IMG/VR virus record: IMGVR_UViG_3300011261_000088
Span: 1-24,845 of that record
Source: a virus
Reading direction: 5' to 3' (one strand)
Length of the DNA stretch: 24,845 bases
Position numbers and translations under genes: made by a program. Within the stretch, counting starts at the first letter, position 1, and the number at the start of each line of letters is the position of its first letter. This document shows positions 14,290 through 21,031 of the stretch, piece after piece. The notes beneath the pieces were generated by a model, which saw only the letters and a program-made list of their open reading frames with translations, did no database searches and was not told where the DNA came from.

Positions 14290-14315
14290 TAAATACCCCC
14301 CTTAAATAAAAATAA

Positions 14316-14369
14316 ATAATAACATCTACCTGTCAGCCTACAACCTTTTTGTCCTATTTATTCTGACAG
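14316..14369 (-). promoter_or_regulatory. Candidate late promoter with overlapping inverted repeat (operator-like)
   Basis: On the minus strand TTGTAG (14343-14338), a 16-nt spacer and TATTAT (14321-14316) form a weak sigma70-like promoter about 27 nt before the small terminase start. A 7-bp inverted repeat, CTGTCAG (14330-14336) and CTGACAG (14363-14369), brackets the -35 box, as an operator might. The spacing and -10 match are reasonable, the -35 is poor. Nothing else was seen in 14370-14485. Confidence 0.35.
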
Positions 14370-14485
14370 ACCCAACCTAAACCCTCTGAAAATAAACATT
14401 GTACAAAATTTGATCACTCTCTGGTCGAGTATATAATAAGTAGTGCCGTAGAAGTGGGAGAACCTGAAAAGGTAGAGAACGGAAA

Positions 14486-14670
14486 GTATAACCCTCAGTA
14501 AATAAAAGATATGACAAAGGGAACCCTGGCTTTCGTGAATAGCTACGCATGCGGACGCCCCCAAACCCCGCCACTTCGCAGCAAGCTGCTTGTATCGGGT
14601 AGGGGCGTAGCCGCCTGCTAAGGCTATCACGAGCCTCCCTTAGTAAATCCTTTTTTTACTTGGGTTATAC
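14486..14670. repeat. 185-nt imperfect palindrome (foldback element or giant RNA hairpin)
   Basis: Left arm 14486-14561 and right arm 14602-14670 are reverse complements with small bulges. Shared blocks, from the tips inward, are GTATAACCC, AGTAAA, AAGGGA, GGCT, CGTGA, TAGC, GCA, GCGG and ACGCCCC, with extra bases in the left arm (5-nt ACCCT, 2-nt TT, single A) looping out. The 40-nt centre has its own hairpin GCAGC-AA-GCTGC (14578-14589). It begins at the last codons of the tailspike gene and fills most of the gene-free stretch before the small terminase. It could be a MITE-like element, an attC-like recombination site, or a structured 3' UTR. Confidence 0.8.
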
Positions 14671-17188: not shown

Positions 17189-17592
17189 TTTATACTCCAG
17201 GTTGGGCCGAAGATTTGAACTGCTCGGGCCATCATGTAACGTCGAGGATTTCGACAACCCTCACTATAAATCATCTCTTCCCAGAGTTCATGTACTATGT
17301 CTGCAGGGATGGTTTGGTCTACACAAAGTACGTCATGTATTGCAGAGCTCATTCTATACTTACCTGTATAGGGGCCACCTGTAATACTCCAAAACGCGCG
17401 GGGTATGGATGCGCCATCGACCGTAGAACCCTGCGGGGCAACGAACTCCTTCTGCCTTACTATAAAACCCTCTGCAGATACCCAACTCCAGGTGCGGGGG
17501 CTGATGTAGCGTATATATGAATCCAGCCGAAACAAGTTTGTTCCGTCCACGAATTCTCCTGAGAACTTTCCTAAGAATTTTCCTTTAACCAT
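17185..17592 (-). CDS. DUF1353 family protein, 135 aa
   Basis: The signature 'VDGASIPRAFWSITGGPYTGKY' is clear (residues 58-79 region), followed by Ala-Ile-His-Asp (84-87), as in DUF1353 phage proteins, many of which sit in lysis modules. His86 and Asp87 with the earlier Asp59 would be the conserved polar residues. The function of the family is not established. Start ATG 17592 overlaps the lysozyme stop by 8 nt (ATGGTTAA) with GGAGAGG upstream. Confidence 0.8.
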   Translation of the reverse strand: MVKGKFLGKFSGEFVDGTNLFRLDSYIRYISPRTWSWVSAEGFIVRQKEFVAPQGSTVDGASIPRAFWSITGGPYTGKYRMSSAIHDVLCVDQTIPADIVHELWEEMIYSEGCRNPRRYMMARAVQIFGPTWSIK

Positions 17593-18037
17593 TATTATCC
17601 TCTCCGATAAGTCTATCTAAATAAGTAGCTGTCAGTTGCGCGCGGTCCGGAGTATCTTCTCTGGCCCACTTACTATCTAACATTTCTACTCGCATGTTTC
17701 GCCAGTTCCTATGGCCTATCGCTTTCCACATTTTCTTAAACCCCTTCAACTTGAAGTAGCCTAGTTGAAAGGACATAAGTATCAAAACTTTCTGCACCTC
17801 TGCTGGGAGCGTTTCCCAGATGAAGCCCTTTGAAGTAACCAGCTTTTGTACTTCGGAGAGGGCGTCTATAATATCCTGCTGTAAGATAATCTCAGCTGCT
17901 CTACGCGGAATTGGCCGGGTCATGAGGTGGCCCCATCCAATTGTGTCATTCCCGAGGGTGTCTTTGTACATGTAGAGGCTGAGCCCTTCGGCTAACTTTA
18001 ATTCCCCCGCGATATGATGCAGATTTACTTTTAGCAT
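17585..18037 (-). CDS. Endolysin, T4-type lysozyme (GH24), 150 aa
   Basis: Hydrolyses peptidoglycan for lysis. The catalytic region 'EGLSLYMYKDTLGNDTIGWGH' (17-37) gives Glu17, Asp26 and Thr32, with the same 9- and 6-residue spacing as Glu11/Asp20/Thr26 of T4 lysozyme. The helical C-terminal lobe ('VLILMSFQLGYFKLKGFKKM', then 'RAQLTATYLDRLI') matches the family, and the length is usual. No signal peptide or SAR segment is visible, so release probably needs a holin. SD GAGGAAG lies about 11 nt before the ATG, rather far. First gene of the lysis cassette, preceded by a strong terminator. Confidence 0.9.
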   Translation of the reverse strand: MLKVNLHHIAGELKLAEGLSLYMYKDTLGNDTIGWGHLMTRPIPRRAAEIILQQDIIDALSEVQKLVTSKGFIWETLPAEVQKVLILMSFQLGYFKLKGFKKMWKAIGHRNWRNMRVEMLDSKWAREDTPDRAQLTATYLDRLIGEDNNG

Positions 18038-18058
18038 ATTATATTAGTCTTCCTCTAT

Positions 18059-18075
18059 TAGCGCCGAAGGCGCGG
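18059..18075. repeat. Hairpin arm copy: GCGCC-GAA-GGCGC (17-nt match to 22955-22971)
   Basis: A 5-bp palindrome with triloop, whose 17-nt context is the exact reverse complement of 22955-22971. A related hairpin GCGCC-AA-GGCGC lies at 18444-18455. It is upstream of the lysozyme leader. The meaning is unknown; it may be a recurring protein-binding or RNA element. Confidence 0.5.
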
Positions 18076-18139
18076 AGAGCCCAGAAGCAAAGCACTTCTT
18101 ACAGTTACTTTTCCACCAGACTCCTATGAAACTCGAGAT

Positions 18140-18183
18140 AAAAAAAGGTCAGCCGACACCACTGCACGTAAAGCCGACTGACC
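18140..18183 (-). terminator. Strong Rho-independent terminator upstream of the lysis genes
   Basis: On the minus strand arms 18183-18173 and 18157-18147 pair over 11 bp (two G-U) with a 15-nt loop and are followed by seven T (18146-18140). No gene ends nearby: the previous gene's terminator is at 18560-18581. It therefore appears to end a non-coding transcript that crosses 18183-18526. Confidence 0.8.
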
Positions 18184-18377
18184 GAGCCAGAGAGGACAAT
18201 AGATTGCCTAAGCTCGAAGGTAGTATAGCCCCCCGCTTCGCAGGGTGCAAGATAAAGCTCTTACTGCGCACTCCCGCGAAAGGCTAGAAATACAGTCAAT
18301 CCGCACCCCGCATGGGGGGAGGCCACCCCCTATCATCCAATCGCCCTGTACGCCGCCGCCCTGCCGCTATCGCCCAT

Positions 18378-18407
18378 CCCCTACCCTACCCTACCCTACC
18401 CTACCCC
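18378..18407 (-). repeat. Telomere-like (CCCTA)5 tandem array, G-quadruplex-capable on the minus strand
   Basis: Six C tracts (4,3,3,3,3,4 nt) separated by TA on the plus strand make a perfect pentamer array. The complementary strand reads TAGGG repeats, meeting the four-tract rule for G-quadruplexes with 2-nt loops. It is flanked on both sides by a CGCCGCCCTG direct repeat (18354-18363 and 18412-18421). Confidence 0.9.
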
Positions 18408-18532
18408 ATCACGCCGCCCTGGTACCCTACGCTTCGCCATACCGCGCCAAGGCGCCCCGCTCCACAATGGCACCAGCCCATACATCGCTCTAGGGAACAG
18501 TACAGCTATTCATTTGCGCAGCTGCATCGAAG

Positions 18533-18561
18533 ATTAGACCTTTCCTTATCCGCAGACGCAA
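18533..18561 (-). promoter_or_regulatory. Candidate sigma70 promoter of the non-coding unit
   Basis: On the minus strand TTGCGT (18561-18556), a 17-nt spacer and TCTAAT (18538-18533, 5 of 6 to consensus) start inside the T tract of the preceding terminator. Predicted start is near 18526. The -35 is a weak match (3 of 6). Confidence 0.4.
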
Positions 18562-18581
18562 AAAAGCCGCAATTAAGCGGC
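18560..18581 (-). terminator. Rho-independent terminator of the 72-aa gene
   Basis: GCCGC (18581-18577) pairs with GCGGC (18570-18566) over a 6-nt TTAATT loop, followed by six T (18565-18560). It lies 31 nt downstream of the stop codon of the 18612-18830 gene. Confidence 0.85.
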
Positions 18582-18611
18582 CCTTCATCCTCCCTCAAAA
18601 CCTACATATAG

Positions 18612-18830
18612 CTAAGCTTTATTAGCCTTGAAACTCTTACCATATACACCCTTGTCTGGCTCATCTTCAGTTGCTATCCAAGTAACCTTTACTCCCTTAT
18701 ACCCTTCAGCCTTCCAATTGCCATACTCACAATCCCTTTCACATTCACAGTCATCCTTATCAAACGACCCAAATAAAACTTCTTTATCTCCATCAACATT
18801 AGTAGCAACTACCTGATAATATTTATTCAT
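18612..18830 (-). CDS. Small acidic protein, 72 aa, unknown
   Basis: ATG 18830 with GGAG 6 nt upstream and a terminator right behind the stop. The protein reads as a short beta-rich domain ('KYYQVVATNVDGDKEVLFGS', 'GVKVTWIATEDE') with a Cys-Glu-Cys-x3-Cys cluster (residues 28-34), which could bind a metal or form disulphides. It is monocistronic: the neighbouring genes have their own terminators. Early or regulatory genes are often packaged like this, but no family is recognised. Confidence 0.65.
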   Translation of the reverse strand: MNKYYQVVATNVDGDKEVLFGSFDKDDCECERDCEYGNWKAEGYKGVKVTWIATEDEPDKGVYGKSFKANKA

Positions 18831-18901
18831 AACCTACTCCAATATTTATTTAAAATTAACCATCCCAGTCAGCTTAGCCTATCCATATCTGAATTGCAAA
18901 C

Positions 18902-18989: not shown

Positions 18990-19547
18990 TCATAGGTCGA
19001 ACAACCCGCTCAAGTCAATATCGTCAGCTTCCATTTGCTTAGTCTTAAGCGCTTTATATTCCTCGCTATACTTCGCTTTCAATGCGGCGCGTTCTTCTTT
19101 CTGCATCCCTTTCAGCTTAACCGTCACAGCGATTACATCAACTTGGCTCTTCTTATCCCTACCCGCATTAATAACATCGGTCACGACTTGTGCCAATATA
19201 GCATCAACCTGCAAGCCACCGCCCGCACGTTCTACCGTCTTCTTCCATTCGCCCCCAAGGAACATATCATAGGTACTTTGATACGCGCCAACACGCGCCT
19301 CAACCGCTTCCAAGCTTCCCTTTTTCAATCCTAAGTCACTTTCCATATAACCAACGGTCAGTCCGCTATTCCTATCTTGTACCAACTTCAACAACCCATA
19401 GCTTAAAACCTGCTCCTTTATATCATCCGGTAGCTTGTCCGCATCCATCTTAAACTTACTTACTTCCTTCCATTCTTTGCCATCTTCGCTAACCACAGTT
19501 TCAAGATTAACAACTGTAGCGTTTTGACTAAAATTCAACTTATACAT
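18990..19547 (-). CDS. Unknown protein, paralogue A, 185 aa
   Basis: Start at 19547 (Met-Tyr-Lys-Leu-Asn-Phe) is supported by an AAGG SD and by alignment with paralogue B, which begins Met-Ser-Lys-Leu-Asn-Tyr. The longer frame would need a TTG start. Shared blocks are the N-terminus, 'YGLLKLVQDRNSG' (residues 50-62), and the extreme C-terminus 'IDLSGLF'. The middle is helical and Lys/Glu-rich. No membrane segment or catalytic motif is visible. The gene is monocistronic, with hairpin and terminator downstream and a pair of 16-nt repeats upstream. As one of the first leftward genes after the divergence zone it may be early-expressed. Confidence 0.75.
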   Translation of the reverse strand: MYKLNFSQNATVVNLETVVSEDGKEWKEVSKFKMDADKLPDDIKEQVLSYGLLKLVQDRNSGLTVGYMESDLGLKKGSLEAVEARVGAYQSTYDMFLGGEWKKTVERAGGGLQVDAILAQVVTDVINAGRDKKSQVDVIAVTVKLKGMQKEERAALKAKYSEEYKALKTKQMEADDIDLSGLFDL

Positions 19548-19611
19548 AATGTGATACCTTTTCAAATTGGCCCTGCGTTATTGCTTGACCTTCTTACAGC
19601 TTACACCATAT

Positions 19612-19803: not shown

Positions 19804-20370
19804 CTACGCTTTAACTTCTTCGCTTTCGCCTGCACTAGCAAACAGACCAGCCAAATCAACGCCTTCACCGCCATCTTCCTTCTGCTGAGCCTTAGCCAAT
19901 TCCGCCTTGTAAATCGCTCTAAAGGCGGCAACACTTGGATGACCAGCCATCGCCTTACGCTGTTCCTTAGTCATACTCTCCAGCTTAGCGGCTACTTGTT
20001 CTGTAGTAACCGTAACCTTGGTACTGGCTAAATAACGCTTAACTGCTTCAACCAAATCAGCACCAATCTTAGTCTTACGTTCGCCTGCCGCTTTAACTGA
20101 ACGCCAGATACCTGCTTTCAACTGCTCCATAAGTTCGCCCATCTTTTCGATACGCTCCTTAGGGTCTTTAATACCAGAAGTTCTATCCTGCAGCAATGAA
20201 CTCAAGCCATACGCAGCTAAGCTACGTTGATTGTCGCCCTCGCCAAAGCTTTCAGGCAAACCGTCAAGCGAAAAGTCCTGGCTTACGTCAGTTACTACTT
20301 CATCACCATCTTTATGAGTTAATGCTACTGTTACTGCTGCTACTGCTACTGTGTAATTTAATTTTGACAT
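19804..20370 (-). CDS. Unknown protein, paralogue B, 188 aa
   Basis: Start at 20370 has GAGAGGG 6 nt upstream; the frame stays open to 20463 without an SD, and the start matches that of paralogue A. Conserved blocks: Met-x-Lys-Leu-Asn-Tyr, 'YGLSSLLQDRTSG' (54-66) and C-terminal 'VDLAGLF' (171-177) followed by a 10-residue tail. The centre is helical with many Lys/Glu, including 'TKEQRKAMAGHP', similar to 'QKEERAALKAKY' in paralogue A. It is the first leftward gene after the candidate origin, with its own promoter and terminator, so it is probably early. No family recognised. Confidence 0.78.
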   Translation of the reverse strand: MSKLNYTVAVAAVTVALTHKDGDEVVTDVSQDFSLDGLPESFGEGDNQRSLAAYGLSSLLQDRTSGIKDPKERIEKMGELMEQLKAGIWRSVKAAGERKTKIGADLVEAVKRYLASTKVTVTTEQVAAKLESMTKEQRKAMAGHPSVAAFRAIYKAELAKAQQKEDGGEGVDLAGLFASAGESEEVKA

Positions 20371-20428
20371 TTTCTGCCCTCTCTTGTTAGTTAATAAAAC
20401 CTGTATTGATTCCTCTTTAGGAACATCT

Positions 20429-20457
20429 AATATATTACCCCTCACCGCAGTAAGCAA
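20429..20457 (-). promoter_or_regulatory. Candidate leftward promoter for paralogue B
   Basis: On the minus strand TTGCTT (20457-20452), a 17-nt spacer and TATATT (20434-20429, 5 of 6) precede the gene start by about 59 nt. The -35 match is weak (3 of 6). Confidence 0.4.
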
Positions 20458-20497
20458 GAACAATTCGCAGTTATCTTACCTATTTAACGCCTCGCTT

Positions 20498-20519
20498 CCG
20501 CTTCGCACCCGCTTCGCAC
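20498..20519. repeat. Tandem 11-mer CCGCTTCGCAC x2
   Basis: Two perfect abutting copies (20498-20508, 20509-20519) lie upstream of the leftward promoter. Ten of the 11 bases recur at 18233-18242. An adjacent AAAAAAGCCGCA (20521-20533) resembles the 3' half of the 18560 terminator but has no pairing arm. Confidence 0.6.
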
Positions 20520-20688
20520 GAAAAAAGCCGCATCCTTTATACGCCATTCATCCACCACCTTTATATACGTGCTAATAATGCCTTTCTACCCACCAAACCA
20601 ACACCACAATCAACGCTATCGTTAAACCCATCTAATCATCCACCCACCCCCACATAACGCCATACAATGCCACCCACAAAGCCATTAT
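20520..20688. other. C-rich, G-poor spacer without genes
   Basis: The plus strand has very few G between about 20545 and 20688, with many CCAC and CACC runs; the flank 20911-21031 is similar. Two TTTATA(T)ACG-like copies (near 20537-20545 and 20560-20570) are present. No ORF with an SD was found. The skew would favour unstructured C-rich RNA on rightward transcripts or a single-stranded region. Confidence 0.5.
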
Positions 20689-20911
20689 TCGAAAAACCCT
20701 ATTCTCACCCTATTTACTCGTTATTTTCCCCTATCGGGTGCTTTTTTAAACTTTGGTAGGGGGGGGGTGCGGGGGGGGTGGGTGATTTTTATTTATATTA
20801 TAATAATATATATTAAGTACTACCCCCCCCCATACCCCCCCACCCATTTTCGATTTTTACCACCGATAGGGGAATATAATGGACAAATAGGGTGGTTATA
20901 GGGTTTTTCGA
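20689..20911. other. Origin-like 223-bp inverted repeat with helically phased CCCTAT boxes
   Basis: Three blocks on the left, TCGAAAAACCCTAT (20689-20702), CACCCTATTT (20706-20715) and TTCCCCTATCGG (20726-20737), have exact reverse complements at 20898-20911, 20885-20894 and 20863-20874, all centred on 20800 with no gaps. CCCTAT boxes start at 20697, 20708 and 20729, so spacings are 11 and 21 bp. G tracts (20759-20778) face C tracts (20823-20841), with an AT-only core (20785-20818) between. It sits where transcription diverges. Layout fits an initiator-bound replication origin or a symmetric operator. Confidence 0.8.
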
Positions 20912-20960
20912 CCCCGCCAACTTACCAGCAAGCCCCGCCATATTCCGCTGCAAATAGTAC

Positions 20961-20989
20961 TTTACAGCCCAAACCCCCGCTATTATAAT
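20961..20989 (+). promoter_or_regulatory. Strong candidate early promoter for the rightward genes
   Basis: TTTACA (20961-20966, 5 of 6), a 17-nt spacer and TATAAT (20984-20989, perfect) predict a start near 20996, leaving a 36-nt C/A-rich leader before the first rightward gene. Confidence 0.72.
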
Positions 20990-21031
20990 AAATCCACAAC
21001 AAACAACCCACAACCTCTAAAGGAAACCCCT

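Follow-up and report, generated by a model that had tools for sequence, protein, structure and literature searches.

The gene-free stretch that precedes the lysis genes of this phage may be the control region of the late operon and may also hold the packaging terminus, the cut being predicted near 18288/18287; from comparison with relatives and analogy with other phages, we assign this reading a probability of roughly 0.45. In kind the stretch is ordinary, a junction for late control and probably for packaging. All coordinates refer to the window, the whole stretch of DNA that was analysed, which is a podovirus-like phage fragment of 24845 bases; its minus strand carries the TerL, portal, and major capsid genes, and its plus strand carries a helicase-bearing module. 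The features on which the argument draws are:

17585-18037, minus: lysozyme gene, the first late gene after the unit (Pfam Phage_lysozyme, E 8e-7; PHROG 7 endolysin, E 3e-12)
18140-18183, minus: terminator t2, before lysozyme (11-bp stem with an inner stem, then T7; fold z -4.9)
18141-18215, minus: predicted ~75-nt RNA, with a start near 18215 and its end at t2
18222-18250, minus: candidate late promoter TTGCAC-17-TATACT, sigma70-like (rank 9 on the minus strand)
18264-18333, minus: element common to relatives and predicted packaging-terminus core (best window match of a four-relative profile)
18287-18288, minus: where the cut is predicted, 18 nt beyond the G-run, on the model of the repeat end in Kuura and of the break in the G001 contig
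18306-18319, minus: CCCCCCATGCGGGG, a C-run/G-run hairpin (same kind of motif, defined post hoc, in 10 of 15 corresponding gaps)
18378-18407, minus: the 5-nt unit GGGTA repeated 5.6 times in an array, with a G-quadruplex motif (motif scan)
18533-18561, minus: earlier-proposed promoter TTGCGT-17-TCTAAT, weak (rank ~81 on the minus strand by a sigma70 matrix)
18560-18581, minus: terminator t1, which closes the upstream transcript (GCCGC-loop-GCGGC stem, then T6; fold z -3.7)
18990-19565 and 19804-20463, minus: two PHROG 28928 paralogs, by which the upstream side of the gap is recognised in relatives

According to this reading, the phage would be podovirus-like with a large terminase of the T7 type, and the stretch would join its early/middle genes to its late operon. 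In the sequence, terminator t1 ends the upstream transcript and is followed by the GC-rich, gene-free element common to relatives; the sigma70-like promoter at 18250-18222 and t2 come before the lysozyme gene, with the late genes continuing on the same strand. The element at 18333-18264 would lie at the edge of a terminal repeat or a packaging site, and the terminase would cut replicated concatemers near 18288/18287, ~18-20 nt beyond the C-run/G-run hairpin. Late transcription would start from the promoter at 18250-18222, and any stable RNA would be the ~75-nt piece that ends at t2, not a 385-nt transcript.

To our knowledge, genome ends and late-gene switches are seldom known for uncultured metagenome phages. 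If the element is a cut site, the packaging ends of relatives would be predictable without virion reads. A broader proposition, which we regard as doubtful, is that the C-run/G-run hairpin marks a terminase cut ~18-20 nt downstream across a large uncharacterised podovirus-like group, which would allow genome ends to be located by sequence only, and that the same DNA here also carries a late promoter and a terminator gate making a ~75-nt RNA.

The gene-free gap before the lysis genes

The gap is 574 nt long (18611-18038, minus strand), and has no minus-strand ORF longer than 42 aa; the gene-free stretch between two terminators in the preliminary description is real, and a hidden small gene was rejected because all minus-strand ORFs are 42 aa or shorter. 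Plus-strand ORFs of 82 and 99 aa in the gap are proline-rich and of low complexity. The gap is flanked by the two PHROG 28928 paralogs and a small ORF (18612-18830) on one side and by the lysozyme gene on the other; the paralogs are without a Pfam match, and the pair is kept beside the gap in several relatives. Few parts of the window match the 422-nt unit (18140-18561) in GC content (58.3% vs 43.9% for the whole): only 4 of 2443 overlapping windows exceed its GC content, and all four overlap the unit itself. Neither the window nor any of six relatives contains a tRNA or tmRNA. Rfam gives no matches in the whole window at the curated gathering score; the best sub-threshold score in the gap region is 12.9 bits, vs 37 needed.

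The absence of genes over ~570 nt, earlier taken as unusual, has a counterpart of 568 nt in the same window (20464-21031). This second gap is divergent and may be an origin or an early promoter region; both of its strands carry long runs of G and of C, and it also has stretches rich in A+T. All three minus-strand G-quadruplex motifs in the window (20845-20823, 19693-19664, and 18407-18378) lie in successive gene-free gaps in its right part; the divergent gap also contains a fourth, plus-strand motif (20759-20782).

Both of the terminators that bound the stretch are convincing hairpins with T-tracts, t2 being much stronger than t1 by fold z (-4.9 vs -3.7). A simple terminator scan returns three sites, vs a shuffle mean of 3.1, and neither t1 nor t2 is among them. 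In the relatives t2 is not seen, and the hairpins at that place have no T-run. The t2 hairpin pattern finds four stretches in IMG/VR, none of which encodes any of 20 window proteins at E 1e-3; a window-specific core pattern finds no stretch there.

An element common to relatives and the predicted genome end

The phage collection contains no direct DNA relatives of 17800-18900; a search with the lysozyme gene identifies three distant loci, and a search with the 18990 gene identifies none. Among named phages of the searched collection, the Vibrio phage VS-ABTNL-3 is nearest (capsid 66%, TerL 51%); a literature search found no paper on it. In the relatives, the corresponding gaps precede lysis or terminase genes and keep to the same side of the PHROG 28928 genes. 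The gap is gene-free in L004, L005, L009, and G001 (the contig of L003) and in VS-ABTNL-3, where one small unannotated ORF lies at its start. VS-ABTNL-3 (L015) also has four copies of GGGGATGGGAA, at 19-55 and 42172-42239, that is, only in two gaps that adjoin a PHROG 28928 gene.

Alignment of the gaps of L005, L009, G001, and L004 reveals a CCCCC(C)-loop-GGGG hairpin and TGGTTTC..CCTC.TTTC. A profile of these four, with the window excluded, has its top window match at 18333-18264 on the minus strand (8.8 bits, E 0.029), and 60 column-shuffled profiles reach at most 7.3 bits; the score is modest, and the position of the match weighs as much as the score. L005, G001, L004, and the window have no fold in common, and none of the four clearly beats shuffles (best z -1.5, for L005). 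Because the sequence is common to relatives without a common fold, a DNA element is favoured over an RNA; for the same lack of a common fold, no covariance model was built.

The hairpin motif, written as C4+N2-6G4+, occurs in 10 of 15 corresponding gaps, vs 1.57 expected in shuffles; it was defined after seven of the gaps had been seen, and the other eight have it in three cases. Since the motif is post hoc and the phages are related, the nominal P of 7e-8 should not be taken at face value. The motif scan covered 29 sources; the 15 gaps do not include the sources in which the gap had not been placed (L006, L007, L010, L016-L018, L023, L113, L118, PaP2, 119X, and a Desulfofustis phage), most of which have no motif upstream of TerL, while L007 carries it elsewhere. 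L009 was dropped as a near-duplicate, and L003/L103 and L021, the same contigs as G001 and G010, were counted once. In L117 the sole copy is inside terS, and VS-ABTNL-3 and Tiera are without the motif.

A mapped genome end is available for one distant phage. The paper on Caulobacter phage Kuura gives 606-bp direct terminal repeats by PhageTerm (PMC9959647); its record has a repeat of exactly 606 bp directly upstream of terS, and Kuura stands far from the window phage (capsid 31-32%, TerL 24%). The right end of the Kuura repeat lies 18 nt past CCCCCCCCCTTGGCGGGGGG and reads ACTGTATA; in the window, ACTGTATT follows CCCCCCATGCGGGG at the corresponding distance. Kuura has four more copies of the hairpin motif outside its repeat. 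The G001 contig starts 20 nt past the G-run in its own sequence, midway through the conserved core, and its ends overlap by 141 nt. This length is a usual assembler k, so the break may be arbitrary.

The records of VS-ABTNL-3, Tiera, and CRP-810 end upstream of late or terminase genes; the records of PaP2 and 119X, which end 2.1-2.3 kb upstream of terS, count against a terminus here. Shea, a relative of PaP2, has terminally redundant ends by PhageTerm (PMC13348215). The paper on CRP-810 has no wording on a terminal repeat, PhageTerm, or termini, and a literature search for PaMx41 together with a terminal repeat finds only the Kuura/Tiera paper. The TerL of the window has its best match in the T7-type NCBIfam model (E 6e-17; 61.6 bits, below the cut-off of 150) and also matches the TerLs of N4-like phages (E 2e-6).

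From the common element and the Kuura analogy, we infer, on fair grounds, a packaging terminus at 18333-18264. A packaging or recombination site had been offered earlier as an alternative to an RNA; the comparative evidence (the element common to relatives, and Kuura) favours this alternative, with the terminus itself a prediction. The competing view is that the gap is an ordinary intergenic region, with a terminator, a late promoter, and a leader in GC-rich sequence that has no packaging role. Each of these parts is common in phages, several relatives are without the hairpin motif, and the statistics for the common element are modest; however, diverged relatives are similar in sequence at the same place and the Kuura repeat ends beside a similar hairpin. 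We consider this view unlikely.

Packaging signals might also be sought in another place: a gap without an obvious gene lies just upstream of the terS candidate in the window (14290-14664) and in L005 (8493-8965), and in the latter inverted repeats are seen by eye.

Transcription of the stretch and other alternatives

Promoters were ranked with a sigma70 matrix. From the inner promoter at 18250-18222, an RNA of only ~75 nt would extend to the end of t2, and promoter, terminator (18183-18140), and RNA plausibly form a short self-contained unit. A 76-nt version of the RNA folds with z -5.4 (0 of 200 shuffles as good), mostly owing to the terminator hairpin (z -4.9); the 5′ hairpin alone has -7.3 kcal/mol. 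Of six close gaps, among which L005 and L009 are near-duplicates, five have a late-strand sigma70-like promoter that beats shuffles of the gap alone at p≤0.03; in the window, the 18250-18222 promoter falls short of significance (p=0.10). On the opposite strand, the best site beats the shuffles in one of these six gaps. Over all 16 gaps, 9 have late-strand promoters at p≤0.05; one of the gaps tested (L109) overran into terS.

These parts could also operate as a gate like lambda pR'-tR': transcription from 18250-18222 would stop at t2 and leave the ~75-nt RNA until, later, an antiterminator allowed read-through into lysozyme and the late operon. The order of promoter, short leader, strong terminator, lysozyme, and late genes on one strand agrees with such a gate in silico, and a matrix scan found no better promoter between t2 and lysozyme. 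Against this, t2 is not seen in relatives, where only hairpins lacking a T-run occur, and no antiterminator could be named among the ORFs scanned in this incomplete genome. The gate is compatible with the late-control and packaging junction that we prefer, as its main rival or as an addition to it; we judge it rather unlikely.

The preliminary description proposed an abundant regulatory or structural RNA of ~385 nt that starts near 18526. The promoter-like sequence, TTGCGT-17-TCTAAT at 18561-18533, is present, begins in the T-tract of t1, as described, and would give such a start, but it is weak (its -35 box has only three of six consensus positions), and no conservation of it is seen in relatives. 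The two terminators with a promoter-like sequence between them and the GC-rich region are in keeping with an RNA, but the predicted 393-nt RNA, described as full of hairpins, gains nothing in stability over dinucleotide shuffles, 84 of 100 of which equal or surpass it (z +0.9), it has no Rfam family, and the relatives share no fold. A 385-nt RNA gene was rejected on promoter rank (~81), fold energy, and the lack of a common fold, and we regard this reading as very improbable. The case serves as a caution that GC-rich, gene-free phage DNA between terminators need not be an RNA gene.

A replication origin, to which the GGGTA array with its G-quadruplex motif and the GGGGATGGGAA copies in the two corresponding gaps of VS-ABTNL-3 (four, with none expected) might point, has only a slight chance, since GGGGATGGG has one exact copy in the window and the divergent gap at 20464-21031 is at least as good a candidate.

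Comparison with known systems

In the pR'-6S-tR' late control of lambda, a promoter, a short RNA, and a strong terminator precede the lysis and late genes. The window has the same succession of promoter, short predicted RNA, strong terminator, and lysis/late genes; it differs in that the predicted RNA is ~75 nt, none of the scanned ORFs could be named as an antiterminator, and the terminator is not seen in relatives.

Like the gap in the window, the 606-bp repeat of Kuura has a C-run/G-run hairpin and a short ACTGTAT match at similar spacing. However, Kuura is a distant phage of 64% GC with other flanking genes, and its terminus is mapped whereas that of the window phage is predicted.

Direct terminal repeats of 81-401 bp are described in PMC3896407 for T7-like and N4-like phages, whose large terminase appears to be related; by analogy, a repeat a few hundred nt long in the window phage would be in line with these sizes, and the gene-poor DNA of that length in the window would fit. 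The comparison is by terminase and repeat size rather than by end sequences, and, the window phage being a fragment, the copies of its repeat would not be visible in it.
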